NCBI GenBank assembly: GCA_024711125.1
Contig: JANJTM010000023.1
Location: 1 to 39,978, forward strand
Source: Rhodothermales bacterium
Lineage (GTDB): Bacteria; Bacteroidota; Rhodothermia; Rhodothermales; UBA10348
Length of the DNA stretch: 39,978 nt
Direction: 5' to 3'
Shown here in pieces: positions 25,014 through 38,883 of the stretch (its first letter is position 1; each line of letters opens with the position of its first letter). The notes under the pieces are model-generated. The model did not search any database, had not been told where the DNA came from, and was given only the letters and a program-made list of their open reading frames with translations. The translations under genes and the position numbers were made by a program.

Positions 25014-28000
25014 TCAGGATCCGCCTTCGCGGGCGCGTGCGGCCAGCAGGCGATCGATTCGGCCCTGCGCCTCCCGGACCTGCGGCTGCAGCTCGGCGTC
25101 GGCCTCGGCCCACGCCTCCACGAAGCGCCGGTAGGCCTCGATCGCGTCGTCCGATCGGCCCAGCGTCTCGGAAACGTCCCCGAGCAGTCGCCAGGCCTGG
25201 GGCTGCATGCCCATGTCCTCCATGGGATCGAGCAGGCCGGACCGGCCGAGCGAAGCGGAGAGGAGGTCGGCCGCCGTCTCGGCGCTGTCGGCCTCGACGA
25301 GGGCCGAGGCGAGTTCGAACAGGAGCAACCGGGGCGCCCCCGGGAAGATCGCCCGGGCCTCGCGCAACGCGGCCACGGCCTCGAGGGGACGGCCGTCTGC
25401 CGTGGCCAGCATCGCACGTGCCGCATGGCGGAACGGATCGTTTCGAAGCCACGCTTCGGGCCACGTCGATTCCTGGGAGGCCAGGAGCCGATTCGCTTCA
25501 TCGGGCTGCCCCGCCACGGCCCGCAGCATCGCCAGGACACCGTACGGCCGCGACAGCGGCGGCATCGACTCCATGGGAAGGTCCCGAAGCTGGGCATCGA
25601 TGTCGTCGGAGAGCCCCGATCGGTCCCCGGTCGCCGTCAGGCGGAAATACAGGGACCGCAACCGGGAAGCCAGGGCGGTCTCGGACATCGGCGCGACCGC
25701 CTCCCGGTTGCGCATCGCGCGCTGCGCGTCGGCCAGGCGCCCGGAGCGCATCGAGAGCACGCCGATCCCGTCCTCGACGAACAGCCGCATGGACGGATCG
25801 TTCACGGCCGCGGTCGCGAGGCGCAGGGTGTCGATCGCGGTCCCGGAATCGCCCGTTTCGAGGTAGAGCAGCAGCCCGCGCCACCAGTGCGTGTTCGGGT
25901 GCCCGGGGAATCGCACGGCGAACGAATCGAGTGCCGCACGGGCCTGGTCGATCCGTCCGGTCGACGCCAGCGACACCACGCGGTTGTCGAAGTAGACACT
26001 CGACGGGTTGGGGGTGCGCACGGCCCGGGCCGTGTAGCGCTCGGCCCGCTCGAACTCCCCGACCTGGAGGGCCGATACGGCCGCGTTGTTGAGCGCGGTG
26101 CCGTCGTCCGGAAATTCCTGCAGCATGGCGTCGTAGGTCGCGAGCACCGCGCGCTCGTCCACCTCGACGACATTGTAGTACCATGCCTCGGCGTAGTACC
26201 GCTCGTCCCGCGGCAGCCGATCACGCAACTCCCACGCGCGCCGGGCGAGCCGGACCATCTCGTCCGGACGGATCTGCGCGTTGTTGTAGAGCACCGACAG
26301 CTTGCGGTAGGCCATGGCGAAGGTCGAGTCGGCCGCAATGGCCGCCTCCAGCGCCGGGCGCGCCTTCGCATAGTCGCCCGCCTCGAACGCCGCCACGCCC
26401 AGGGTGTACTGGCGCAGGGCCTCGAGCGACCGCGTCGACACCGCCTCCAACGCTTCGGCCTGCCGGATCGATCGCAGGGATTCGCCGATGCGTTCGCGCA
26501 ACGTTTTCGAAAGCCGGTCCACGGCGCGCACGATCTCGGCGTCCGAGTCGGCGGTTTCCCGCAGCGGCACCAGTTCCTGCCCCGATACCGCGTCGACGAG
26601 CCGGAGGCTCAGGACATAACTCGAACCCAGCGACGCGATATCGCCGGTAACGACGGCTTTCGCGCCCGCCCTCCGCGCCACCTCGCGCGCGGTCTCGAGA
26701 TCGAGCGTGGCGTCGCCCCGCTGCATGAGCCCGAGAATGCGCCGCACCTCCGACGGATCGAGCAGCGAAACGACCGACGACTGCGCGAGGTCGATGCGAA
26801 GGGCTTCCGATATCGTTCGCCCCAGCCCTTCCTGGGCCGATCGGTCATCGAACTCGGCCACCACGACCCGATCCTGCGAAGAGAGCACGCCCCGCGTGAC
26901 GAGCGTGCCCGCCGGACCGATGCCGAGCGCCCGCAGTCCCATCCAGCCGGCGGCGACGACGGCGAGCCCGGCCATGGCCACCACGCCGCCCCACCGGGCC
27001 CGGCGCACCGTGAGCCAGGCCTCGAGGCCCGACAGTTCGCGGCGATCGCCCGAATCGAGCCGCGCGCGCCGGTCCTCCACGCGGTCGGCATACCAGAGGA
27101 TGGGGACTCCGGCCGCCATGAGCACGACGCCGAGGGCAAATACCCAGTCGGGAAGTCCGAACAGCATCATCGCCGCGTAAACCAGCGCCAGCACGAGGAC
27201 CGCAACCGCCGCGAACCCGGCGAGAAAACCGAGTCCGGACCGTGATTCCGCGAGGGGCGCCGGCGCGGGAGCCGGACGTACCGCCGAACCGCCGAGGGCC
27301 TCGGCGGCGGCCGCGGTCGTCGCGAACCGGTCCTCGGGCCGCTTCGCGAGCAGGCGCGAGAGGATGGCGCGCGTCTCGGGGGTCGCGTCCACGGGCGGCG
27401 GATCCTCGTTCAGGATCGCGTAGACGAGCGCCTGCTCGTAATCGGCGTCGAACGGCCGGCGTCCGGAGAGCATCTCGTGGAGCACGACCCCGAGCGACCA
27501 CTGGTCGGCGGCCGGTCCGACCCGCTCGCCGCGTGCCTGCTCGGGGCTCATGTAGGCTGCCGTTCCGACCGTGGAACCGGCTTTCGTAAGGTCGGCCGAG
27601 GACTCGAGCTTGGCCACGCCGAAGTCGAGGATCCGGACTTCGCCGCGCCCGGTGACCATGAGGTTGGCCGGCTTGACGTCCCGGTGCACGATGCCGGCTT
27701 CGTGGGCCCGCGCAAGTCCGGAAGCCACTTGCCGGGCGATGGCAAGCGCCTCGGCCTCGGGAAGCGGCCCCTGCTGCAGCCGGTACTTGAGCGTCTGCCC
27801 GTCGTACCACGGCATCACGATGTAGATCTGCCCGTCCTCGGTCTCGCCGATGTGGTGGATCGCGCAGATGTTGGCGTGGTCGAGCGCCGAGGCCGCCCGC
27901 GCCTCCTGCATGAAACGCTGCTTCGCGTCCGCGTCCTGGCTCAGGTGGGGCGGAAGGAATTTCAGCGCGACGCGACGCTGGAGCTGCTGGTCGAACGCGC

Positions 28001-28073
28001 CGTAGACGATGCCCATGCCGCCCGAACCGAGGCGTGAATCGATACGGTAGTGGGCGACGGTCTGGCCGATCAT
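25014..28073 (-). CDS. Membrane Ser/Thr protein kinase with TolB-like and TPR domains
   Basis: A 1019-residue receptor-like kinase. Residues 8-270 are a full Hanks kinase: GSGGMG (16-21), Lys38 in VALKFL, HRDVKPAN (130-137), DFG (150-152) and SPEQ (176-179), so it should be active. A low-complexity Ala/Pro linker and a hydrophobic segment follow (about 280-345, two closely spaced helices), then another membrane segment near 370-390. From about 405 to 510 a TolB/FlgO-like domain (AEFDDRSAQEGLGRTISEALRIDLAQ) precedes TPR-like helical repeats to the C-terminus (SLEALRQYTLGVAAFEAGDYAKARPAL and many more). This layout is common in Gemmatimonadota and Acidobacteriota. Signal and targets unknown. 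Confidence 0.92.
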   Translation of the reverse strand: MIGQTVAHYRIDSRLGSGGMGIVYGAFDQQLQRRVALKFLPPHLSQDADAKQRFMQEARAASALDHANICAIHHIGETEDGQIYIVMPWYDGQTLKYRLQQGPLPEAEALAIARQVASGLARAHEAGIVHRDVKPANLMVTGRGEVRILDFGVAKLESSADLTKAGSTVGTAAYMSPEQARGERVGPAADQWSLGVVLHEMLSGRRPFDADYEQALVYAILNEDPPPVDATPETRAILSRLLAKRPEDRFATTAAAAEALGGSAVRPAPAPAPLAESRSGLGFLAGFAAVAVLVLALVYAAMMLFGLPDWVFALGVVLMAAGVPILWYADRVEDRRARLDSGDRRELSGLEAWLTVRRARWGGVVAMAGLAVVAAGWMGLRALGIGPAGTLVTRGVLSSQDRVVVAEFDDRSAQEGLGRTISEALRIDLAQSSVVSLLDPSEVRRILGLMQRGDATLDLETAREVARRAGAKAVVTGDIASLGSSYVLSLRLVDAVSGQELVPLRETADSDAEIVRAVDRLSKTLRERIGESLRSIRQAEALEAVSTRSLEALRQYTLGVAAFEAGDYAKARPALEAAIAADSTFAMAYRKLSVLYNNAQIRPDEMVRLARRAWELRDRLPRDERYYAEAWYYNVVEVDERAVLATYDAMLQEFPDDGTALNNAAVSALQVGEFERAERYTARAVRTPNPSSVYFDNRVVSLASTGRIDQARAALDSFAVRFPGHPNTHWWRGLLLYLETGDSGTAIDTLRLATAAVNDPSMRLFVEDGIGVLSMRSGRLADAQRAMRNREAVAPMSETALASRLRSLYFRLTATGDRSGLSDDIDAQLRDLPMESMPPLSRPYGVLAMLRAVAGQPDEANRLLASQESTWPEAWLRNDPFRHAARAMLATADGRPLEAVAALREARAIFPGAPRLLLFELASALVEADSAETAADLLSASLGRSGLLDPMEDMGMQPQAWRLLGDVSETLGRSDDAIEAYRRFVEAWAEADAELQPQVREAQGRIDRLLAARAREGGS

Positions 28074-28127: not shown

Positions 28128-29099
28128 TCACCCGCCGTGCGTCGGCATGCGGGACAACATCACCGCGCCGAGGGCGGCCGGCACGAGAATATTGACGGCG
28201 TAGAGACCCAGCGCGGCGTCCACGGCGACCGCCGTGGACAATCCGAGACCCGCCATGAAGAAGGCCGCGGCGGCCTCCCGCACCCCGAGGTCTCCGAGGG
28301 TCAGGTTCGGAATCACGTTCTTGACCGACAGGGTGGCCAGCCCCGCGGCCACGAGCCAGGCGAAAGACACCTCGGCGCCGAACGCGACGGCCATGAGCGA
28401 GAGTTGCGACGCCCCGATGGTCAGCCGCAACCCGTTGGCGGCCATGGCCGCCATGGCGTCGCCCGGCCGCATCGCGAGCAGGAAGTCGAGGCCGGGGCGG
28501 GGCCGGCGGCGCACGAACCACCGGTGCAGCCGGTCGGGCCGGAGCGCAAGCGCGAGCACGGCCACGAAGAGCGCGAGAGAAACGGCGGCGACGGAACGCC
28601 AGGCGCCGGAAGGTTCGGGCGCGAGCAGGAGAATGCAGCTCGACCCGAGGAGAAACGGCGGTCCGTACCGCAGGAACGTCTCCAGCCCCACGCCCGAGGC
28701 CCAGGCCCACCCGTTTCCGCGCCCGTGCATCCAGCCGCGGCCGGCGAACTCCCCGATGCGCGCGGGGGTCCAGAACCCGATGGCGTGCGAACCGACGACG
28801 GCGCGCACGCTCTCGGCGTACGTCACGTCGGGCGCGATGCGACGCGCGATGAACCACCAGGCCCAGCCGGCGACGAGGAAATTCGGCACCATGAGCCCGA
28901 GCGCGGCGGCCGCCGGCACCCAATCGGCGCGCCGAACGGCCTCCAGCATGGCCCGTTCGTCCACCTGCACGACGAGCACCGCGGCGATGACCGCGGTCAC
29001 GCCGAAGCGAACCCATGCGGGCAATCGGAACCCGGCGCCTGCCGGGTCCGCGTCGTCAGTCCTTGGTGACGACGTTCGCGATCGCGCTCTTCTCCACAC
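28128..29099 (-). CDS. Flippase-like integral membrane protein (lysylphosphatidylglycerol synthetase TM / UPF0104)
   Basis: A membrane protein of the UPF0104/AglD/MprF-transmembrane superfamily, which flips or transfers lipids. The 323 residues hold about eight hydrophobic segments. Family marks include TPARIGEFAGRGW near residue 112 (the TPGGxGE-like motif) and NLTLGDLGVREAAAAFF near residue 260 (the PGGLGxxE-like repeat of the motif). The ATG at 29099 overlaps yajC by 44 bp on the same strand; the alternative GTG at 29000 would give 290 residues and remove the overlap. The segment from yajC to the kinase is probably one operon. Confidence 0.8.
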   Translation of the reverse strand: MWRRARSRTSSPRTDDADPAGAGFRLPAWVRFGVTAVIAAVLVVQVDERAMLEAVRRADWVPAAAALGLMVPNFLVAGWAWWFIARRIAPDVTYAESVRAVVGSHAIGFWTPARIGEFAGRGWMHGRGNGWAWASGVGLETFLRYGPPFLLGSSCILLLAPEPSGAWRSVAAVSLALFVAVLALALRPDRLHRWFVRRRPRPGLDFLLAMRPGDAMAAMAANGLRLTIGASQLSLMAVAFGAEVSFAWLVAAGLATLSVKNVIPNLTLGDLGVREAAAAFFMAGLGLSTAVAVDAALGLYAVNILVPAALGAVMLSRMPTHGG

Positions 29100-29442: not shown

Positions 29443-30663
29443 TCAGGCGGTGAGGGCGCGCCAGTAGAAGGCGGGAGACAGCAGGCGCCGTCGTTCGTCC
29501 ATGTCGTCGAACATGGCGCTGATGTCGGCGGCGAGGGCCGGAGAACGGGCCGCTTTTCCGATGACCAGGTCGAGCAGGAAGCGCGAGCGGCTCATCCGCT
29601 GCAGCGTGTGCGACAGTCGCAGTTCGTCGCGCACGACCCGGAGCGTTTCCCGTTCGTACGCCGCGAGCGCGGCCGGCGAAAAATCACTTTCGGCGGCGCA
29701 GCGGGCGATGCACTCGGCGGCGTTGAATCCGCTCACCATCGCGTTGCCGATGCCTTCCCCGGTGAACGGATCGATGAGGCTCGCGGCGTCGCCGACCAGC
29801 ATCCATCCGTCTCCTGCCATCCGTCGCGGCTTCGAGCCGACCGGCAGGCCCCACCCCTTGACGGGTCCCAGCCGGCGGGCTCCCGCGAACCGGTGCGCGA
29901 AGCGCTCGTGGTTCACGACGCGCTCGAGCAGGTCCTTGAGCCGAGCGTCCTTGCGCTTGATCGCGGCGCTGAGCATGCCGAGGCCCACGTTGGCCCGCCC
30001 CTCGGCCATCGGAAAGATCCAGAAATAGCCGGGTAGCGTCTCCTCGACGAAATGCAGCTCGATGTGGTCGAGCGCGTTGAACCCGGTCACTCCCTCGTAG
30101 TAGGCCCGCACGGCGGCCACGTAATGCCTCGGATCGAGCTGGCCCATCCCGAGCTCGCGCGCCACGATCGAATAGGCGCCGTCGGCACCCACGACGACGC
30201 GCGCACGGTCCTCGTGCGATCGGCCGTCGGCGTCCGTCCAGCGGACACCCCGAACGGCGGCCCCGTCCCGGACGAGACCGGTTACCGAGGCACCTGTCAC
30301 GATCCGGGCGCCCGCGGCGACCGCAGCGTCGAACAGCAGCGCGTCCAGGCGCTCGCGCGCGAGGACGTACCCGGGCGCAAATGCCCCACCGAGGGCCTTG
30401 CGGAACGGGATTTCCACGACGTCGCCGCGGGGACCGCTGAACGTGACTCCCCAGCTACCGACGCTCCCGGCGTCGTGCACCGCCCGCTCGAGCCCGAGCC
30501 GCCGCAGCACGGTCATGCTCTTTCCGCCGCACGCGTCCCCGCAGATCTTGTCACGCGGAAACGTCGCCCGGTCGAGCGTAAGCGCCGAAAGGCCCTTACG
30601 GGCGAGGAGGTGTGCGGCCGTCGATCCGCCCGGGCCGGCCCCCACGATGATCGCGTCGTACAT
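29443..30663 (-). CDS. Geranylgeranyl reductase family FAD-dependent oxidoreductase
   Basis: A 406-residue flavoprotein of the geranylgeranyl reductase / menaquinone-reducing oxidoreductase family, which saturates isoprenoid side chains or hydroxylates small molecules. The FAD motif GAGPGGST is at residues 8-15 after AIIVG, the second motif ADGAYSIVAREL near residue 160 is the GD(A/G) region, and VGDAASLIDPFTGEGIGNAM near residue 285 closes the flavin fold. PGYFWIFPMAEGRANVGLG near residue 220 marks the family. Substrate unknown; lipid or quinone tail reduction is plausible. The SRP RNA lies immediately upstream on the same strand. Confidence 0.85.
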   Translation of the reverse strand: MYDAIIVGAGPGGSTAAHLLARKGLSALTLDRATFPRDKICGDACGGKSMTVLRRLGLERAVHDAGSVGSWGVTFSGPRGDVVEIPFRKALGGAFAPGYVLARERLDALLFDAAVAAGARIVTGASVTGLVRDGAAVRGVRWTDADGRSHEDRARVVVGADGAYSIVARELGMGQLDPRHYVAAVRAYYEGVTGFNALDHIELHFVEETLPGYFWIFPMAEGRANVGLGMLSAAIKRKDARLKDLLERVVNHERFAHRFAGARRLGPVKGWGLPVGSKPRRMAGDGWMLVGDAASLIDPFTGEGIGNAMVSGFNAAECIARCAAESDFSPAALAAYERETLRVVRDELRLSHTLQRMSRSRFLLDLVIGKAARSPALAADISAMFDDMDERRRLLSPAFYWRALTA

Positions 30664-30713: not shown

Positions 30714-30731
30714 AAAAAAATAAGGGGCAAG
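30714..30731 (-). terminator. Intrinsic terminator of the SRP RNA
   Basis: On the reverse strand the 3' arm of the RNA closing stem (CTTGCCCCTT end) is followed at once by a U-rich tract with seven consecutive T at 30714-30720. The closing stem and tract together resemble an intrinsic terminator built into the RNA end. Confidence 0.5.
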
Positions 30732-30824
30732 CTGACCGTATCGCGCCGCATCGACCTCCTACCGCTGCTGCCTTCCGGCCCTCACGGGATTCAGAGGGAG
30801 CTGGCCGTACGGGACTTGCCCCTT
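30722..30824 (-). ncRNA. ffs: Signal recognition particle RNA (4.5S-type)
   Basis: The small SRP RNA, which with Ffh delivers membrane proteins to the Sec machinery. On the reverse strand the apical domain IV core reads GAGGGCCGGAAGGCAGCAGC, matching the conserved bacterial pattern CAGG-x-CCGGAAGG-x-AGCAGC with its GGAA tetraloop. The two ends (AAGGGGCAAG at the 5' end, CTTGCCCCTT at the 3' end) pair perfectly for 10 bp. About 103 nt, the normal size of the bacterial short form without an Alu domain. It lies between the divergent glycosyltransferase and the flavoprotein gene. Confidence 0.93.
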
Positions 30825-30874
30825 GCGGGCGCCAACCGCGAACTGCCGGGATGGTTCCCGGCCGACGGGACGGC

Positions 30875-30900: not shown

Positions 30901-32037
30901 GTGTACTGGACCTTCGTCGCGCTCGGCCTAGCCTGCTCGGCCGGCTATTCCGCATTCCTCCTGCTGCTGGCGTGGTCCTTCCGCGCCGCGGTCCGGGAGG
31001 GCGGTTCGCGGCGCGCCGCGGGCGGGGCGGAGTTCCCGGTCAGCGTCGTGATCCCCGCCCGCAACGAGGAGAAGCACATCGGCGCGTGCCTCGACGCCGT
31101 GCTCGCATCGGCCGACGCCCGCTGCGAGGTCGTGGTCGTGGACGACGCGTCGAGCGACGGAACGGCCGATGCGGTGCGCCGCCGTATGGGCGCGGGCCCG
31201 TGCCCGGTGCGCCTGGTCACGCTCGAGGGAGCCGACCGCGCCCACAAGAAGCGGGCGGTGGAGGCGGGTGTCGCCGCGGCGACGGGCCTGTGGATCCTGC
31301 AGACCGACGCCGACTGCCGGCCCGGCCCGGCCTGGATCGTCGCCATGCGCCGCCACATGACGGATGACGCCGGGTTCATCGCGGGGCCGGTGCTCTTCGC
31401 TCCCGACGACGGGGCCTTCCGCGGTTTCCAGGCGCTCGAGTTCTGCGGCATGATGGGCATTTCGGCGGCGGCGATCCGCATGGGGCGCCCCATGCTGGCG
31501 AGCGGGGCGAACCTCGCGTTCCGCCGGGACCTCTTCGACCGCGTGGGCGGCCACGGGGCGACCGACCACGTGACCTCGGGCGACGACGTCCTGCTCATGC
31601 ACGCGATCGACCGGCTCGGAACGGCGCGCATCGCGTCCTGCACGGATCCGGACGCCGTCGTCGAGACGCCGGCGCAGCCCGACCTGGAGGGATTCTTCAA
31701 TCAACGCAGCCGGTGGGCGTCCAAGGCGGGACGCGTGGGGGATCCGGGCCTCGTCGCGCTGTATTCGGTCATCTGGGGCGCTTTCGTCTTCGCGCTCGTC
31801 GCGTTTCCCGCGGCGCTGGCGATGTCTGCGCCGGCCTGGCCGGCGGTCGCCGCCTGGCTGCTCAAGGTCGGCGGCGAATTCGTGATGCTCGATGCCGTCA
31901 CGCGCCATTACGACCGCCGCCGGTTGCTGCGCCACCTCGTCCCGTGGCAGCCCCTGCACATCGCCTACGTCACCCTCGCGCCGGTCATCGGCCTGGCGGT
32001 CGGGTTCACGTGGAAAGGCCGCAGGCTCGCGCGATGA
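30901..32037 (+). CDS. Family 2 glycosyltransferase (membrane-anchored)
   Basis: A 378-residue processive-type glycosyltransferase. An N-terminal membrane segment (WTFVALGLACSAGYSAFLLLLAWSF) precedes the GT-A domain: PVSVVIPARNEEKHI at 46-60, nucleotide-sugar DD at 81-82 in VVVDDASSDGTAD, the metal motif QTDADCRPGPAW near 140, an acceptor region with SGANLAFRRDLFDRVGG, the catalytic TSGDDVLLMHAI near 230, and QRSRW-type motif FNQRSRWASKAG. Three more membrane helices close the protein, as in cellulose/N-acetylglucosamine synthases. The GTG start lies 18 bp after a -7-like element. It is translationally coupled to the deacetylase gene (ATGA). Confidence 0.88.
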   Translation: MYWTFVALGLACSAGYSAFLLLLAWSFRAAVREGGSRRAAGGAEFPVSVVIPARNEEKHIGACLDAVLASADARCEVVVVDDASSDGTADAVRRRMGAGPCPVRLVTLEGADRAHKKRAVEAGVAAATGLWILQTDADCRPGPAWIVAMRRHMTDDAGFIAGPVLFAPDDGAFRGFQALEFCGMMGISAAAIRMGRPMLASGANLAFRRDLFDRVGGHGATDHVTSGDDVLLMHAIDRLGTARIASCTDPDAVVETPAQPDLEGFFNQRSRWASKAGRVGDPGLVALYSVIWGAFVFALVAFPAALAMSAPAWPAVAAWLLKVGGEFVMLDAVTRHYDRRRLLRHLVPWQPLHIAYVTLAPVIGLAVGFTWKGRRLAR

Positions 32038-32657
32038 GACGATACGAATGGTCTGTCCGCACAGCGGCCCTCCTGCGCGGGGTCGAATGCCGGACGCGCT
32101 CCGAAGGCATACACCTGACCTTTGACGACGGACCGGACCCCCGCTCGACCCCCGGACTGCTGGAGGCCCTCGCACGCCACGGCGCGCGCGCGACCTTCTT
32201 CCTGTTGTCGCACCGCGCGGCCGCCGACCCCGGGCTTCTACGCGCGACGGTCGACGCGGGGCACTCGATCGCCTCCCACGGACGCGGCCACGTGGACGCG
32301 TGGCGGGTGAAGGCCGCCGAGGCCATCGCTGACCTCAGCGAAGGCACCGACGCGCTCGAGCAGGCGCTCGGGCGACCGATCCGGCGCGTACGCCCGCCGT
32401 TCGGACGCCTGCGTCCCGCCACGCTGCACTGGGCGATCGGCACGGGGCGCACGATCTGCCTGTGGAGCCGCATGCCGGGAGACTTCCGCCCCGACGCGAC
32501 GCCGGAAACCGTCGCCCGCCGCGTCGCCGAACGGGTGCGCCCGGGCGATATCGTGGTACTGCACGACGCCCGGTCCGGTGCCGCCGAGACCGCCGCGCGC
32601 ACGGCCGAACGCCTGGCCGACCGGTGGCCGCTCCTCCCGCTGGTCGAGGTCCCATGA
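32034..32657 (+). CDS. Polysaccharide deacetylase (NodB/CE4 fold)
   Basis: A 207-residue metal-dependent amide hydrolase that removes acetyl groups from amino sugars of a glycan. The NodB motifs are present: TFDDGP at 29-34 (catalytic Asp), the metal histidines His82 and His86 in SHGRGHVDAW, RPPFGRLRP near 120, a W-x-x-x-x-x-D segment (LWSRMPGDFRP) and LHDA near 180. There is no obvious signal peptide, unusual because most such enzymes act outside; it may work on a lipid-linked precursor on the inner side. It overlaps both neighbours by ATGA-type junctions. Confidence 0.9.
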   Translation: MRRYEWSVRTAALLRGVECRTRSEGIHLTFDDGPDPRSTPGLLEALARHGARATFFLLSHRAAADPGLLRATVDAGHSIASHGRGHVDAWRVKAAEAIADLSEGTDALEQALGRPIRRVRPPFGRLRPATLHWAIGTGRTICLWSRMPGDFRPDATPETVARRVAERVRPGDIVVLHDARSGAAETAARTAERLADRWPLLPLVEVP

Positions 32658-33739
32658 CGGCGCTCTCCCTCGTCCTGCTCGCGGTACAGGTGACCTACCA
32701 CCTCCTGCTGCGCCTCGGGTGGCGACGGGCGCTGGACGACGCCCGCGCCTTCGAAGGCGCGCGCGCCGAGGTCCCGGTGAGCGTGGTCGTCGCCGCTCGC
32801 GACGAGTCAGCCCGCATTCCCGCGCTGCTGGACGCACTCTCGGCGCAGGAGCACGGGCGTTTCGAGGCCGTGATCGTCGACGACGGTTCGCTCGACGGCA
32901 CGGCCGATCTCGTGCGGAATCACGCGGCACGGGACCCGCGGGTCCGCCTGGTTCCGAACCCGGACCCGAAGGAACCCCGCAAGAAACACGCGCTCGCCGC
33001 CGGCATCGCGGCCGCACGCCACGACCGGCTCGTGTTCACCGACGCCGACTGCGTTCCGGGTCCGGGTTGGCTCGCGGCCATGGCCTCGGCGTTGGGCGCC
33101 CAGGAGGGTCGGGGTCTCGTCGTCGGCGTCGGCCAGCCGCTCCGCCGCCCCGGAATGCTGAACGCGCTGCAGCGGTGGGACGCCGCGTGGGCCGCCTACA
33201 CGGGCGCGGCGGCGATCGCGTGGCGGCGCCCGTACCTGGCGAAGGGCTCGAACATGGCCTACGATCGAGCGGTCTTCGAGGCCGTGGGCGGGTACGCGTC
33301 CATGCTCTCGAGCCTCAGCGGCGACGACGACCTGCTCGTGCAGGCCGTCGCGGAACGGGGAGCGGGACGGGTCCGCTTCCAGCCCGACCCGCGCGCGATC
33401 GTTCGGAGCCCCAGCCCGGAAACGCTGCGCGCGTGGGTCCGGCAGAAACGACGGCACACGGCCGCCAGTCGCCACTACGGCCCCGCGATCCAGGTGCACC
33501 TGGCGCTCTACCACGGCTCGGCGACCCTGCTGTGGCTGGCGCCCGTCGCGACCGGCGGCCTGGGTTTCGCCGCACTCGCGGCGCGACTGGTGATCGTCGC
33601 CCTGGCGGCACGCGATCCGCTGCGCCGGACGGGACATACGGATCTCGCGTGGAAGGCCCCCGTTCTCGACTTCCTCCACGCGTGTTTCCATGCCTCGATT
33701 CCGCCCATCGGGTATTTCTTCGGCGCGCGCCGCTGGTAG
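32654..33739 (+). CDS. Second family 2 glycosyltransferase
   Basis: A 361-residue paralogue of the first transferase. N-terminal membrane segment, then PVSVVVAARDESARI, VIVDDGSLDGTADLV (DD), VFTDADCVPGPGW, KGSNMAYDRAVFEAVGGY, the catalytic SGDDDLLVQAV region and the acceptor motif WVRQKRRHTAASRHYG; C-terminal membrane helices follow. Its ATG overlaps the deacetylase stop (ATGA). The two transferases flanking a deacetylase point to production of one partly deacetylated glycan or glycolipid. Substrate sugars are unknown. Confidence 0.88.
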   Translation: MTALSLVLLAVQVTYHLLLRLGWRRALDDARAFEGARAEVPVSVVVAARDESARIPALLDALSAQEHGRFEAVIVDDGSLDGTADLVRNHAARDPRVRLVPNPDPKEPRKKHALAAGIAAARHDRLVFTDADCVPGPGWLAAMASALGAQEGRGLVVGVGQPLRRPGMLNALQRWDAAWAAYTGAAAIAWRRPYLAKGSNMAYDRAVFEAVGGYASMLSSLSGDDDLLVQAVAERGAGRVRFQPDPRAIVRSPSPETLRAWVRQKRRHTAASRHYGPAIQVHLALYHGSATLLWLAPVATGGLGFAALAARLVIVALAARDPLRRTGHTDLAWKAPVLDFLHACFHASIPPIGYFFGARRW

Positions 33740-35273
33740 CCGGGCGGCGACGGCCGTCGGTGTCGGCGTTGCGCTGGCGGCCCTGGCGGTCCTGGCGGCG
33801 CCGGCCGCGGACGCGCAGCCGAGGGGCGACCGCCCCATGCTGCTCGTCGAACCCGGTTCGATAGAGATTCTCGGGCGGGCACGCGCCTCGATCTTCGCAT
33901 TGGACATCGATGGGGCCGAGCGCGAGCTGGCCACGCTGGCCGCGCGGCCCGACGGGGCGGTCGCGGCCTGGTATCACCGGTCGCTGTCGAGCCTTCTCGT
34001 GGCCCTCCTGGACGACGAGGACGCGGCCTGGTCGCGGTTCTTCAGCCGCAGCGACTCGCTGCGACGGCGCCTCGACCATGCCCCGCGGGGTGCCTGGAGA
34101 GACCTCCTCGAGGCCGAAGCGGACTATCAGCGCGCCGTCGCGTGGGCGAAACGTGGCCGCTATGCGCGGGCGGCCATGGCGGCTTCGGCCGCGTTCCGCG
34201 GGTATTCCCGCACGGTGGAACGCTATCCGCACCTCGCCGACGCTCGCAAGGGTACCGGGCTCTTCGAGGCGCTCGTCGGAGCGCTGCCCGACACCTACCG
34301 CCGTTTCCTGACCCTTTTCGGTTTCCCGGGCGACTTCTCGCGCGGAACGGCGGCGCTCGTCGATGCCGCACGCGGCGACGGCTACTTCTCGGACGAGGCC
34401 TCGCTGTACCTGGGCATGCTCGGTCTCTTCGAGTTCCCGGTGCCGGTGGACGCCCTCGCCGAACTGCGGGCGGTCTACTCGCGGACCGGCCGCAGCCCGC
34501 TGGTCGCGCTGCCCCTGCTGGAGACGCTCCTGCGCAGGCGCCGTGTCGCCGAAGCCGAGGATGTGCTGAAGGATGTCGCCCGGCGCATGGAGGAGGGCCG
34601 CACGATGCCCGTCGCGTATCTCGCCTGGTTCGAGGGCGAATGCGCGTATCGACGCGACGCCTTCGATGCCGCGGCCGCGCACTTCGAACGGTACGTGCGG
34701 ATCCACCGCGGCCCGGCGCTCAAGGCCCACGCATGGATGCGACTCGGACAGTCGCACGACCTCTCCGGACGACGTTCCGAAGCGGTCGCCGCATATCGCG
34801 AGGTCGTGGCGGCGCGCGAATTCGATTCGGATGCCGCGGCTGCCCGGTTCGCGGCGGAACGCCTGCGGGCAGCGCCGTCCGACGACGAACGCACGCTCTG
34901 GTACGCGGCCAACGCGTTCGATCGGGACGACCCGGCGATCGCCGAAGAGATGCTGAGAGGCCTGGTGGAGCGGACCGCGCTCGACCCCGGCCTTCGGGCC
35001 GAGGCGCTGTACCGGCTCGGTCGTGTCGCGGAGGAACGCCGTTCCGACGACGAGGCCGTCGCGTGGTACCGGCGGGCGGTGGACGCGGGCGGGGATGCGA
35101 AGGACCGGTGGAAGCCCACGAGCTGGTATCGCATCGCCCGCATCGAGGAGGCCCGCGGCAACCGGTCGGCGGCGCGCGCTGCGCTGGAGCGACTGCTCGA
35201 GGTGGAGGGCGACTACGATTACCGCGGGCAGCTGCGCCGACAGGCCGAAACCCGGCTCGCCGGGCTCAGATGA
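33690..35273 (+). CDS. Secreted TPR-repeat protein
   Basis: A 527-residue protein. The N-terminus (MPRFRPSGISSARAAGSRAATAVGVGVALAALAVLAAPAADAQ) has a long basic n-region before a hydrophobic core with a cleavage site after ADA, so it is probably periplasmic or outer-membrane bound. The rest is alpha-helical tetratricopeptide sequence: pairs of helices such as DPGLRAEALYRLGRVAEERRSDDEAVAWYRRAVDAG and HAWMRLGQSHDLSGRRSEAVAAYREVV. It overlaps the preceding transferase by 50 bp. TPR proteins often scaffold export complexes, e.g. PgaA-like partners; here that is inferred from context only. The stop overlaps the convergent priA stop by 8 bp. Confidence 0.8.
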   Translation: MPRFRPSGISSARAAGSRAATAVGVGVALAALAVLAAPAADAQPRGDRPMLLVEPGSIEILGRARASIFALDIDGAERELATLAARPDGAVAAWYHRSLSSLLVALLDDEDAAWSRFFSRSDSLRRRLDHAPRGAWRDLLEAEADYQRAVAWAKRGRYARAAMAASAAFRGYSRTVERYPHLADARKGTGLFEALVGALPDTYRRFLTLFGFPGDFSRGTAALVDAARGDGYFSDEASLYLGMLGLFEFPVPVDALAELRAVYSRTGRSPLVALPLLETLLRRRRVAEAEDVLKDVARRMEEGRTMPVAYLAWFEGECAYRRDAFDAAAAHFERYVRIHRGPALKAHAWMRLGQSHDLSGRRSEAVAAYREVVAAREFDSDAAAARFAAERLRAAPSDDERTLWYAANAFDRDDPAIAEEMLRGLVERTALDPGLRAEALYRLGRVAEERRSDDEAVAWYRRAVDAGGDAKDRWKPTSWYRIARIEEARGNRSAARAALERLLEVEGDYDYRGQLRRQAETRLAGLR

Positions 35274-37521: not shown

Positions 37522-37593
37522 GGGGTCGGGGGGACGTTGCGTTGAAACCCGCGCCGTCGGCCGGGGTTGCCACGGTTCTGGACTCCCGGAGCG

Positions 37594-38607
37594 ATGCAAA
37601 TCCGTCTACCCTCGATCCTGGCCCTGGTGCTCGTTGCGGCCCCCGGGTGCTTTCCGTACGCCTGCAACCGCACCGAGACGCGGGCGATCGCGCCGGCCGA
37701 TTCGGTTTCGCGCGCGTTGGCGGCGGCGACGCCGGTCGACACGCTCGAGGTGCTCGGCGACGTGGGGGGAGCATTCGAGCATCCGCGCACGGTCGCGTTC
37801 GGGCCGGGCGGCGTGCTCTGGTTCACCGATACCGGGCGGAACAGCGTGTCGCGCGTCGATTCGACCGGCGCTGCGACCGAGTCCGTCCCCGACCACTTCG
37901 AATTCCCCTACCTCGCCGGTTTTCGGGGCGGAAAGCCGGTCGTGTACGCGGCCGGTCCGCGGCGGCTCGTCGGGCTGGACGACGACGGCGCCGAAGCCTG
38001 GTCGCAACCGATGCCGAAGGACGGCCCGGAAAAGGGCGCCCTGACGTACGCGCTCGTCACCGACCGCGGGTCCTGGTTCAAGGTGCTCGGCGAGGAGTTC
38101 GGCGGGCTGATCGTCGCGTTCGACAGCGCCGGCGCCGAAACGGGCCGCACGCCGCTCGGGGGCGCGTGGTGGCGCTGGGCCGGCTTCCTGCGCACGTGGC
38201 GGGGCGAGGCGTGGTCGCTCTCGGGCTATCGTCCGCTGCTTCACCGGATCGGCGAGACCCTCGGCGATTCGCTCGCGTTGCAGGGCTTCGACTCCCCGAT
38301 GCTCGCCCGCCTGCGCAGCTTCGAGCGCGGCGACGCCGACGCGCCCCCGCTCCTCACCGCGTCGGCGACGGGTGCGGACTCGGTCCTCTTCGTGCTCAAC
38401 ATGCGCCCCGGCTGGCTCAACGTCGATGTCTACGGTCCCGACGGACGCCTTCGCCGCATCCTCACCGAGCCGAACCCGGGGTTCGACAAGAACTTCTTTC
38501 CGACCGACATCGCGGCCCGCGCGTTTCCCGGCGGGGCGTACGAGATCGCCGTCACGGTCACGGAGCCCGAGGCCGGGGTGCGGAGGTACCGCTGGGCGGG
38601 GTTCTAG
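37594..38607 (+). CDS. Beta-propeller lipoprotein (NHL-like)
   Basis: A 337-residue secreted protein. The signal (MQIRLPSILALVLVAAPGC) ends in the lipobox APGC, Cys19 being lipidated. The mature part opens with a propeller-type repeat (FEHPRTVAFGPGGVLWFTDTGRNSVSRVD), the pattern of NHL/6-bladed propellers of bacterial secreted sensors, and continues with further degenerate blades (LAGFRGGKPVVYAAGPRRLVGLD, VDVYGPDGRLRRIL). No catalytic motif seen. Divergent from priA with 72 bp between; no convincing promoter for either in that gap. Confidence 0.78.
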   Translation: MQIRLPSILALVLVAAPGCFPYACNRTETRAIAPADSVSRALAAATPVDTLEVLGDVGGAFEHPRTVAFGPGGVLWFTDTGRNSVSRVDSTGAATESVPDHFEFPYLAGFRGGKPVVYAAGPRRLVGLDDDGAEAWSQPMPKDGPEKGALTYALVTDRGSWFKVLGEEFGGLIVAFDSAGAETGRTPLGGAWWRWAGFLRTWRGEAWSLSGYRPLLHRIGETLGDSLALQGFDSPMLARLRSFERGDADAPPLLTASATGADSVLFVLNMRPGWLNVDVYGPDGRLRRILTEPNPGFDKNFFPTDIAARAFPGGAYEIAVTVTEPEAGVRRYRWAGF

Positions 38608-38700: not shown

Positions 38701-38883
38701 GTGGAAATTCGGCCCTATTTTCCACTTCCGGAGCCGTTTTTGGAGTGCGGAAGTGTAATCGAGGCCGTTTTTCCACTTCCGGAGCCGTTTTTGGAGTGCG
38801 GAAGTGTAATCGAGGCCGATTTTTCCACTTCCGGGGCCGTCTTGAGGGTGCGGAAGTGGAATTGAGGCCCGTATTCCACTTCC
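38701..38883. repeat. Hairpin repeat array B, four units with 51-52 bp period
   Basis: Loop GGCC cores lie at 38711, 38763, 38814 and 38866 (steps 52, 51, 52). Units are hairpins: GTGGAAA (38701-38707) with TTTCCAC (38719-38725); GGAAGTG with CACTTCC at 38749-38755/38774-38780 and at 38800-38806/38826-38832; and a perfect 11 bp stem GGAAGTGGAAT (38852-38862) with ATTCCACTTCC (38873-38883). Segments 38722-38767 and 38773-38818 are identical (46 bp). Between hairpins CACTTCCG can pair instead with the next CGGAAGTG across a GGAGCCGTTTTTGGAGTG spacer, so the array can fold two ways. Period 51/52 shifts frame, so it is not coding. It lies between the lipoprotein and recG; 38608-38700 and 38884-39025 show nothing I can name. 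Confidence 0.87.

Follow-up and report, generated by a model that had tools for sequence, protein, structure and literature searches.

The 39,978-base contig analysed here (JANJTM010000023.1, hereafter the window) comes from a Rhodothermales bacterium whose 3.8 Mb genome is assembled in 81 contigs, and carries overlapping genes for two membrane glycosyltransferases (GT-A and GT-B), a NodB-type deacetylase and a tetratricopeptide repeat (TPR) protein, together with a nearby gene for a flippase-like membrane protein. These genes probably form a membrane aminoglycolipid cassette in which two or three GT2 enzymes act alongside a cytosolic deacetylase. This reading draws on gene content, catalytic motifs, a NodB lacking a hydrophobic N-terminus, a conserved neighbourhood, and the joint absence of several components in one genus. 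The genes concerned are:

28128..29099, minus strand: flippase-like membrane protein of the PF03706 family (LPG_synthase_TM, UPF0104; MprF-type), 323 amino acids, assigned to the cassette from Pfam and its neighbourhood in relatives.
30901..32037, plus strand: GT-A, GT2 membrane glycosyltransferase, 378 amino acids, core transferase of the cassette, with TDADC and QxxRW (Pfam, curated models, tree).
32034..32657, plus strand: NodB/CE4 deacetylase, 207 amino acids, start ATG, with five CE4 motifs and no export signal by hydropathy (AlphaFold2, Foldseek).
32654..33739, plus strand: GT-B, second GT2 membrane glycosyltransferase, 361 amino acids, start ATG (Pfam, curated models, tree clade).
33690..35273, plus strand: TPR protein with a signal-like N-terminal segment, 527 amino acids, start ATG (TPR families, Kyte-Doolittle).

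The four plus-strand open reading frames are all present, in the order GT-A, NodB, GT-B and TPR, and every junction overlaps as the first-pass annotation of this DNA had claimed: an ATGA at 32034-32037, a second at 32654-32657, and 50 shared bases at 33690-33739. That annotation had delimited the unit as 30901-35273. Its four genes hold, and its boundaries are revised, since the unit extends to the flippase-like gene at 28128-29099 on the minus strand, which had been missed.

Membership of NodB in the CE4/NodB-homology family is clear from its match to PF01522 (89.6 bits against a cut-off of 23.1). Residues D31, D32, H82, H86, R120-P122, W144, D150 and H177 are invariant across 20 aligned sequences, and strict patterns recover all five CE4 motifs in 46 of the 55 NodBs of the order. 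The AlphaFold2 model has a mean predicted local distance difference test score (pLDDT) of 91.8, with residues 1-12 unsure, and its top Foldseek matches are the CE4 deacetylases PdaC and Bc1960. Kyte-Doolittle analysis revealed no hydrophobic segment in the window NodB. Applied to the 45 residues before the first motif in 85 sequences (five of them unscored, their start pattern being different), the same scale found no hydrophobic stretch before the catalytic domain in 77 of the 80 scored. Two of the three exceptions, L049 and L215, start like lipoproteins and come from places that have no cassette, while the stretch in L047 falls partly upstream of the start common to its close relatives. NodB is predicted to be cytosolic; the earlier description of a deacetylase without visible signal peptide, apparently cytoplasmic, stands as a prediction, and the topology analysis proposed with it, run here by hydropathy, agrees. 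The nearest folds are those of peptidoglycan deacetylases, which could suggest that the substrate of NodB is a peptidoglycan precursor or some other soluble molecule, within a neighbourhood of envelope housekeeping only. PdaC and Bc1960, however, work outside the membrane, whereas NodB shows no export signal.

The two transferases match solely GT2-type (and GT21-type) families in Pfam, GT-A PF00535 (76.5 bits) and GT-B PF13641 (84.6 bits), and share 37% identity over 278 amino acids. GT-A carries the signature TDADC followed by QxxRW, with key positions invariant in 13 aligned sequences. Two paralogous membrane glycosyltransferases were earlier said to flank NodB; the pair of GT2 enzymes is real, but a local duplication is not supported, as GT-A and GT-B fall into two separate clades of the tree, each with counterparts in other families. 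This tree of 141 sequences was built by a quick method with a midpoint root, leaving 42 of 138 inner branches open, and dropped matches below 120 bits or 250 residues, which excludes the degenerate GT-As of genus g22 discussed below. The window GT-B belongs to a 17-row clade (Shimodaira-Hasegawa-like approximate likelihood ratio test support 96) containing all nine glycosyltransferases encoded upstream of the flippase in other families; the same tree separates this clade from the GT-A rows as well as from the group that holds most downstream glycosyltransferases. Such a placement suggests that the cassette may originally have run GT(up)-flippase-GT-A-NodB-GT(down), the window retaining four of these five members.

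The flippase-like protein exceeds the Pfam cut-off for PF03706 (58.6 bits against 33.4) and falls short of the narrower TIGR00374 (27.1 against 43.2 bits); a PDB sequence search with its profile gave no match at E 0.01. In other families of the order, its gene immediately precedes GT-A, in several cases with an overlap, and NodB and commonly a second glycosyltransferase follow. In the window, a YajC gene and a reductase gene separate it from GT-A. In the PDB, the sequence matched best by the GT-A profile is 6yv7, a crenarchaeal lipid-linked mannosyltransferase. This match favours the main competing explanation, namely that a polyprenyl-phosphate-linked sugar or short glycan is flipped and then passed to lipid A, protein or polysaccharide, as in ArnC/ArnD or archaeal AglD pathways. 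Consistent with it, one study describes PF03706 domains fused or adjacent to transferases of archaeal N-glycosylation, and in Methanosarcina a neighbourhood of flippase, deacetylase and glycosyltransferase genes (PMC5898192). On the other side, the two transferases score only 25.7 and 21 bits with the ArnC model NF007986 (cut-off 529), and no oligosaccharyltransferase-like or ArnT-like gene was found among about twenty annotated neighbours, the rest of the genome not having been searched. We regard this polyprenyl-linked pathway as unlikely, while giving it real weight.

Profiles of members of the proposed aminoglycolipid cassette were run against 114 genomes of the order, of which 54 contain NodB at a total of 55 places (loci are numbered L, genomes G). 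Counting profile matches of 40 bits or more within 3 kb, at least one cassette gene accompanies NodB at 48 of the 55 places: GT-A at 43 (42 upstream on the same strand), the flippase at 30 and a second glycosyltransferase at 19. Of the 43 GT-A places, nine carry a degenerate GT-A, L211 is a weak match on the other strand, and at L213 GT-A is truncated where the contig stops. Seven NodB places lack cassette genes (L049, L215, L155, L216, L208, L197 and L186); at L155 and L216 NodB itself matches weakly (126 bits), at L208 the sequence available upstream is only 1.9 kb long, at L197 the 5 kb upstream contain no cassette gene, and the genomes of L186 and L049 (G107 and G037, respectively) encode the flippase and GT-A together elsewhere. 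At the genome level, NodB and the flippase are both present in 40 genomes and both absent from 55, with NodB only in 14 and the flippase only in five (Fisher p 1.5e-13, relatedness ignored).

The arrangement extends beyond the order. Among 394 genomes sampled from the phylum, 71 match the flippase profile at E 1e-40. Of these, 58 lie outside the order, and 40 of the 58 loci were read, the 18 omitted being mostly lower-scoring. GT-A comes next after the flippase in all 40; NodB lies within 3 kb in 30, a downstream glycosyltransferase in 28 and an upstream one in nine. The flippase-GT(A) core is found in far-flung families of the phylum. The four-gene order, whose conservation the first-pass annotation had put forward as a check, was observed only within the window's family; what is kept across order and phylum is flippase-GT-NodB, commonly with a further glycosyltransferase. 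As a rough control, neighbourhoods of NodB homologues from other lineages (at least 80 loci, mainly Flavobacteriaceae and other Bacteroidetes along with a few from other phyla, many of the loci short) were scanned. Among the 80 loci listed, flippase or GT-A matches occur at L053 and L101, both of them contigs of the window's order, L053 being identical to L200 and L101 sharing a 400-base stretch with L203; four other loci have GT-B-type matches only (38-198 bits), and the rest have none. In several non-order cassettes the downstream glycosyltransferase is followed by open reading frames similar, by BLAST clustering, to a predicted radical SAM protein in the same place at L253 (11749-12747), for which all curated models score far under cut-off.

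Flanking genes differ among the annotated loci of the order (PurD, MutS, PriA and others). Such variation between families might be expected of a neighbourhood of envelope housekeeping genes around a NodB acting on peptidoglycan precursors; yet while the flanks change, the flippase, GT-A and NodB stay together, and that explanation is improbable. A block that moves between flanks and remains intact is the strongest sign of one function.

Genus g22 includes 13 NodB-bearing genomes, nine degenerate and four intact. In the nine (L153, L154, L187, L188, L193, L198, L199, L202 and L203), a GT-A-like frame of about 364-378 amino acids upstream of NodB scores 58-109 bits and lacks QxxRW and TDADC; loose D-x-D pattern matches in L193 and L202 occur in contexts unlike TDADC. 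The nine NodBs keep all five CE4 motifs. These nine genomes yielded no flippase at E 1e-10, and no other protein of GT-A type scored above 73 bits in them. The four other genomes keep GT-A (359-378 bits) and the flippase; each also encodes, at a separate place, a glycosyltransferase of the GT-B type seen in the window (323-386 bits). Because these GT-B-type proteins score 154-182 bits against the GT-A profile, the GT-A search would have shown them in the nine, and the type is taken as missing there, although no direct GT-B search was made. Three components (GT-A motifs, flippase and second glycosyltransferase), one of them unlinked, are missing together in nine of the 13 genomes. The degenerate GT-A frame is possibly a non-catalytic partner of the intact NodB.

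The TPR protein matches TPR families only. By Kyte-Doolittle, its residues 19-37 form a hydrophobic segment with Ala-rich sequence after it, and this signal-like segment, with the open reading frame at 33690-35273, is consistent with the earlier description of a secreted TPR protein after GT-B. A single-sequence model is all-helix with low confidence (mean pLDDT 51), and no barrel family is among the Pfam matches. A genome-wide search of the window's family found the protein in 11 of 27 genomes at E 1e-10, one of them weakly, and it lies next to a cassette glycosyltransferase on the same contig in nine of these 11. In G026 the TPR and glycosyltransferase genes lie at contig ends, and G004, the weak TPR match, has no GT-A match at E 1e-30. 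Three genomes (G005, G016 and G020) have a single GT-A match and no TPR match, the contig of G016 ending inside GT-A; in G006 and G012 the TPR protein is only about half matched. Since five family genomes (G009, G014, G017, G018 and G026) have the glycosyltransferase pair and the TPR protein without NodB, and single-GT-A genomes lack it, the TPR protein accompanies the glycosyltransferase pair, not the deacetylase. In the order loci that were examined, it stands beside the cassette only in the window's family.

These observations bear on the first-pass proposal of pga/ica-type logic, in which a partly deacetylated poly-N-acetylglucosamine would be synthesised and exported with the TPR protein as export partner. 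The parts are similar (a GT2 synthase, a CE4 deacetylase and a TPR protein), and GT-A has the QxxRW motif. However, the transferases score 53.3 and 49.6 bits against a cut-off of 422.3 for the PgaC/IcaA equivalog TIGR03937, the deacetylase lacks a hydrophobic N-terminus and is by prediction not secreted, and the TPR protein, which matches TPR families only, adjoins the cassette in no family but the window's among the order loci examined and occurs there also beside glycosyltransferase pairs without NodB, a flippase-like gene being conserved instead. The proposal is abandoned here as hardly credible. The alternative idea of lipid-sugar modification, raised in the same annotation, gains support from two findings: a flippase-like gene is conserved alongside, and most scored NodBs carry no export signal.

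Two further features lie between the flippase-like gene and GT-A:

29443..30663, minus strand: geranylgeranyl-reductase-family flavoprotein, between YajC and GT-A (TIGR02032).
30721..30828, minus strand: small signal recognition particle (SRP) RNA, Bacteroidales type (RF04183, 90.1 bits), on the strand opposite to GT-A and shortly upstream of it.

The reductase scores 218.8 bits with TIGR02032 (cut-off 158.8) and occupies this position, between YajC and GT-A, in several members of the window's family. Its position raises the question of whether the glycosyltransferases decorate an isoprenoid such as a quinone or carotenoid, and both score weakly with the CruG model (47.2 and 62.6 bits). The CruG cut-off is 600 bits, however, and in scanned order loci of other families the reductase profile gave two weak matches about 4 kb from the cassette (L033, 78 bits; L044, 94 bits), non-order loci not having been searched; isoprenoid decoration is very improbable. 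An alternative, longer start of GT-A at TTG 30823 falls inside the SRP RNA gene on the other strand, so GTG 30901 is the likelier start. Elsewhere in the window, the minus-strand frame at 25014-28073 encodes a long protein whose translation looks like a Ser/Thr protein kinase carrying repeats in its C-terminal region, and a tandem repeat at 38718-38883 (51-base unit, 3.2 copies, 89% matches) lies downstream of the open reading frame 37567-38607.

For the aminoglycolipid cassette, we infer the acceptor, sugar, product, order of steps, flipping and TPR role as follows. At the cytosolic face, GT-A would take an N-acetyl-hexosamine from a nucleotide sugar and attach it to a membrane lipid, either directly or through a sugar that the lipid already carries; the second GT2 enzyme would add or supply a neighbouring sugar; and the signal-less NodB would remove the acetyl group in the cytosol, giving a free amine. 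The PF03706 protein, whose family is described as having a flippase role predicted from MprF (PMC5898192), may then move the finished lipid to the outer leaflet. In the window's family, the TPR protein could be a periplasmic accessory of the glycosyltransferase pair.

Several observations weigh against this reading. The window flippase gene is on the other strand, 1.8 kb away, and is not in the operon. In nine of the 55 NodBs of the order one or more of the strict motif patterns find no match, and some of these nine belong to cassette places (L044, L192 and L212-L214); the flippase and NodB occur without GT-A at four of the 55 places (L036, L200, L206 and L209). Outside the order, NodB is missing within 3 kb at 10 of the 40 flippase-GT-A loci, and those 40 were mostly the better-scoring ones; profiles built from cassette members also favour the recovery of cassette members. 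In g22, NodB remains, its motifs unbroken, in genomes whose GT-A motifs are gone, and the nine joint absences are related and may represent a single event. Further points are the five family genomes with a glycosyltransferase pair and TPR protein but no NodB, and the presence at L049, in a different family within the order, of a remote homologue of the TPR protein (164 bits) about 4.5 kb from a NodB without a cassette:

L049, 9071-9829, minus strand: NodB with a lipoprotein-like N-terminus.
L049, 2885-4654, plus strand: TPR homologue.

Finally, the aminoglycolipid product itself is a prediction from genes alone.

A bolder version, which is tentative and has less than an even chance of being right, holds that an undescribed GT(up)-flippase-GT(A)-NodB-GT(down) cassette makes an aminoglycolipid of two or three sugars with a cytosolic NodB, as a third independent synthase-deacetylase-flippase assembly, and that the g22 transferase turned into a non-catalytic partner. 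Should the cassette indeed yield an amino-sugar lipid, at least three bacterial lineages would have built the synthase-deacetylase-flippase scheme from glycosyltransferases of different types. The CE4 family, best known for secreted enzymes that act on polysaccharides and peptidoglycan, would then include a cytosolic branch that modifies lipids. The cassette offers a concrete gene set for glycolipid testing in the phylum, and gives PF03706 proteins a defined candidate substrate.

Curated models place the genes outside several known pathways. For Nod factor synthesis, NodB reaches 91.8 bits with TIGR04243 (cut-off 240) and the transferases 20.2 and 23.4 bits with the NodC model TIGR04242 (cut-off 550). 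For the HpnI/HpnK hopanoid glucosamine pathway, the HpnI model TIGR03472 gives 34.8 and 59.4 bits (cut-off 310), and the window's genome has no hopene cyclase match. The ArnC/ArnD, CruG and pga/ica pathways were rejected on the scores above. The pgaABCD/icaADBC loci share a GT2 enzyme and a CE4 deacetylase with the cassette, and in pga also a TPR protein, but differ in their secreted deacetylase, their barrel-bearing PgaA and the lack of a flippase-like gene. In the archaeal neighbourhoods of arCOG00899 (PF03706), for example in Methanosarcina acetivorans, a flippase, a polysaccharide deacetylase and a glycosyltransferase are described side by side; the likeness is by protein type only, and the authors predicted in 2015 that glycosylation pathways are served (PMC5898192).

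The closest parallels are two bacterial systems, here compared by description only. The hexSDF operon of Clostridioides difficile is reported to make aminohexosyl-hexosyl-diradylglycerol, and its loss to lower daptomycin and bacitracin resistance (PMC10128005). As in the present cassette, a synthase, a polysaccharide deacetylase and a stand-alone MprF-type flippase domain are brought together, there in one operon, and an N-acetyl-hexosyl glycolipid is deacetylated (PMC10128005). It differs in belonging to another phylum, in having a single operon glycosyltransferase, and in HexS being annotated as a monogalactosyldiacylglycerol synthase rather than a GT2 enzyme; HexD is extracellular in the principal model of its authors, who give an intracellular action as one of the alternatives (PMC10128005). 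Another C. difficile enzyme is described as supplying the first sugar (PMC11898633), which suggests a role for the second glycosyltransferase of the window cassette. The gpgSDF genes of Pseudomonas aeruginosa are reported to make glucosamine-phosphatidylglycerol, a product also shown when the pathway was rebuilt in E. coli, and likewise comprise a glycosyltransferase, a deacetylase predicted to be cytosolic and a UPF0104 flippase; they differ in their single glycosyltransferase, the GT4-type GpgS, and in GpgD belonging to COG3233 (PMC12713373). Amino-sugar lipids are expected by these authors to change membrane charge (PMC12713373). By the accounts given, the flippase step is unproven in both hexSDF (PMC10128005) and gpgSDF (PMC12713373), and lipid flipping by the PF03706 protein of the cassette is likewise proposed by analogy.

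Among the papers listed by searches of the open-access literature, none has a title or abstract opening that describes this cassette in this phylum. A deacetylase, a PF03706-type flippase and a glycosyltransferase form one unit in the relatives, the window flippase being nearby and outside the operon. Neither GT-A nor GT-B belongs to the family of HexS (monogalactosyldiacylglycerol synthase) or GpgS (GT4), Pfam giving GT2/GT21 types only. By this comparison, the cassette would work like hexSDF and gpgSDF, but it is not filed as a member of either because its transferases belong to other families. What differs is the presence of two or three GT2 enzymes in a scheme already known from hexSDF and gpgSDF.

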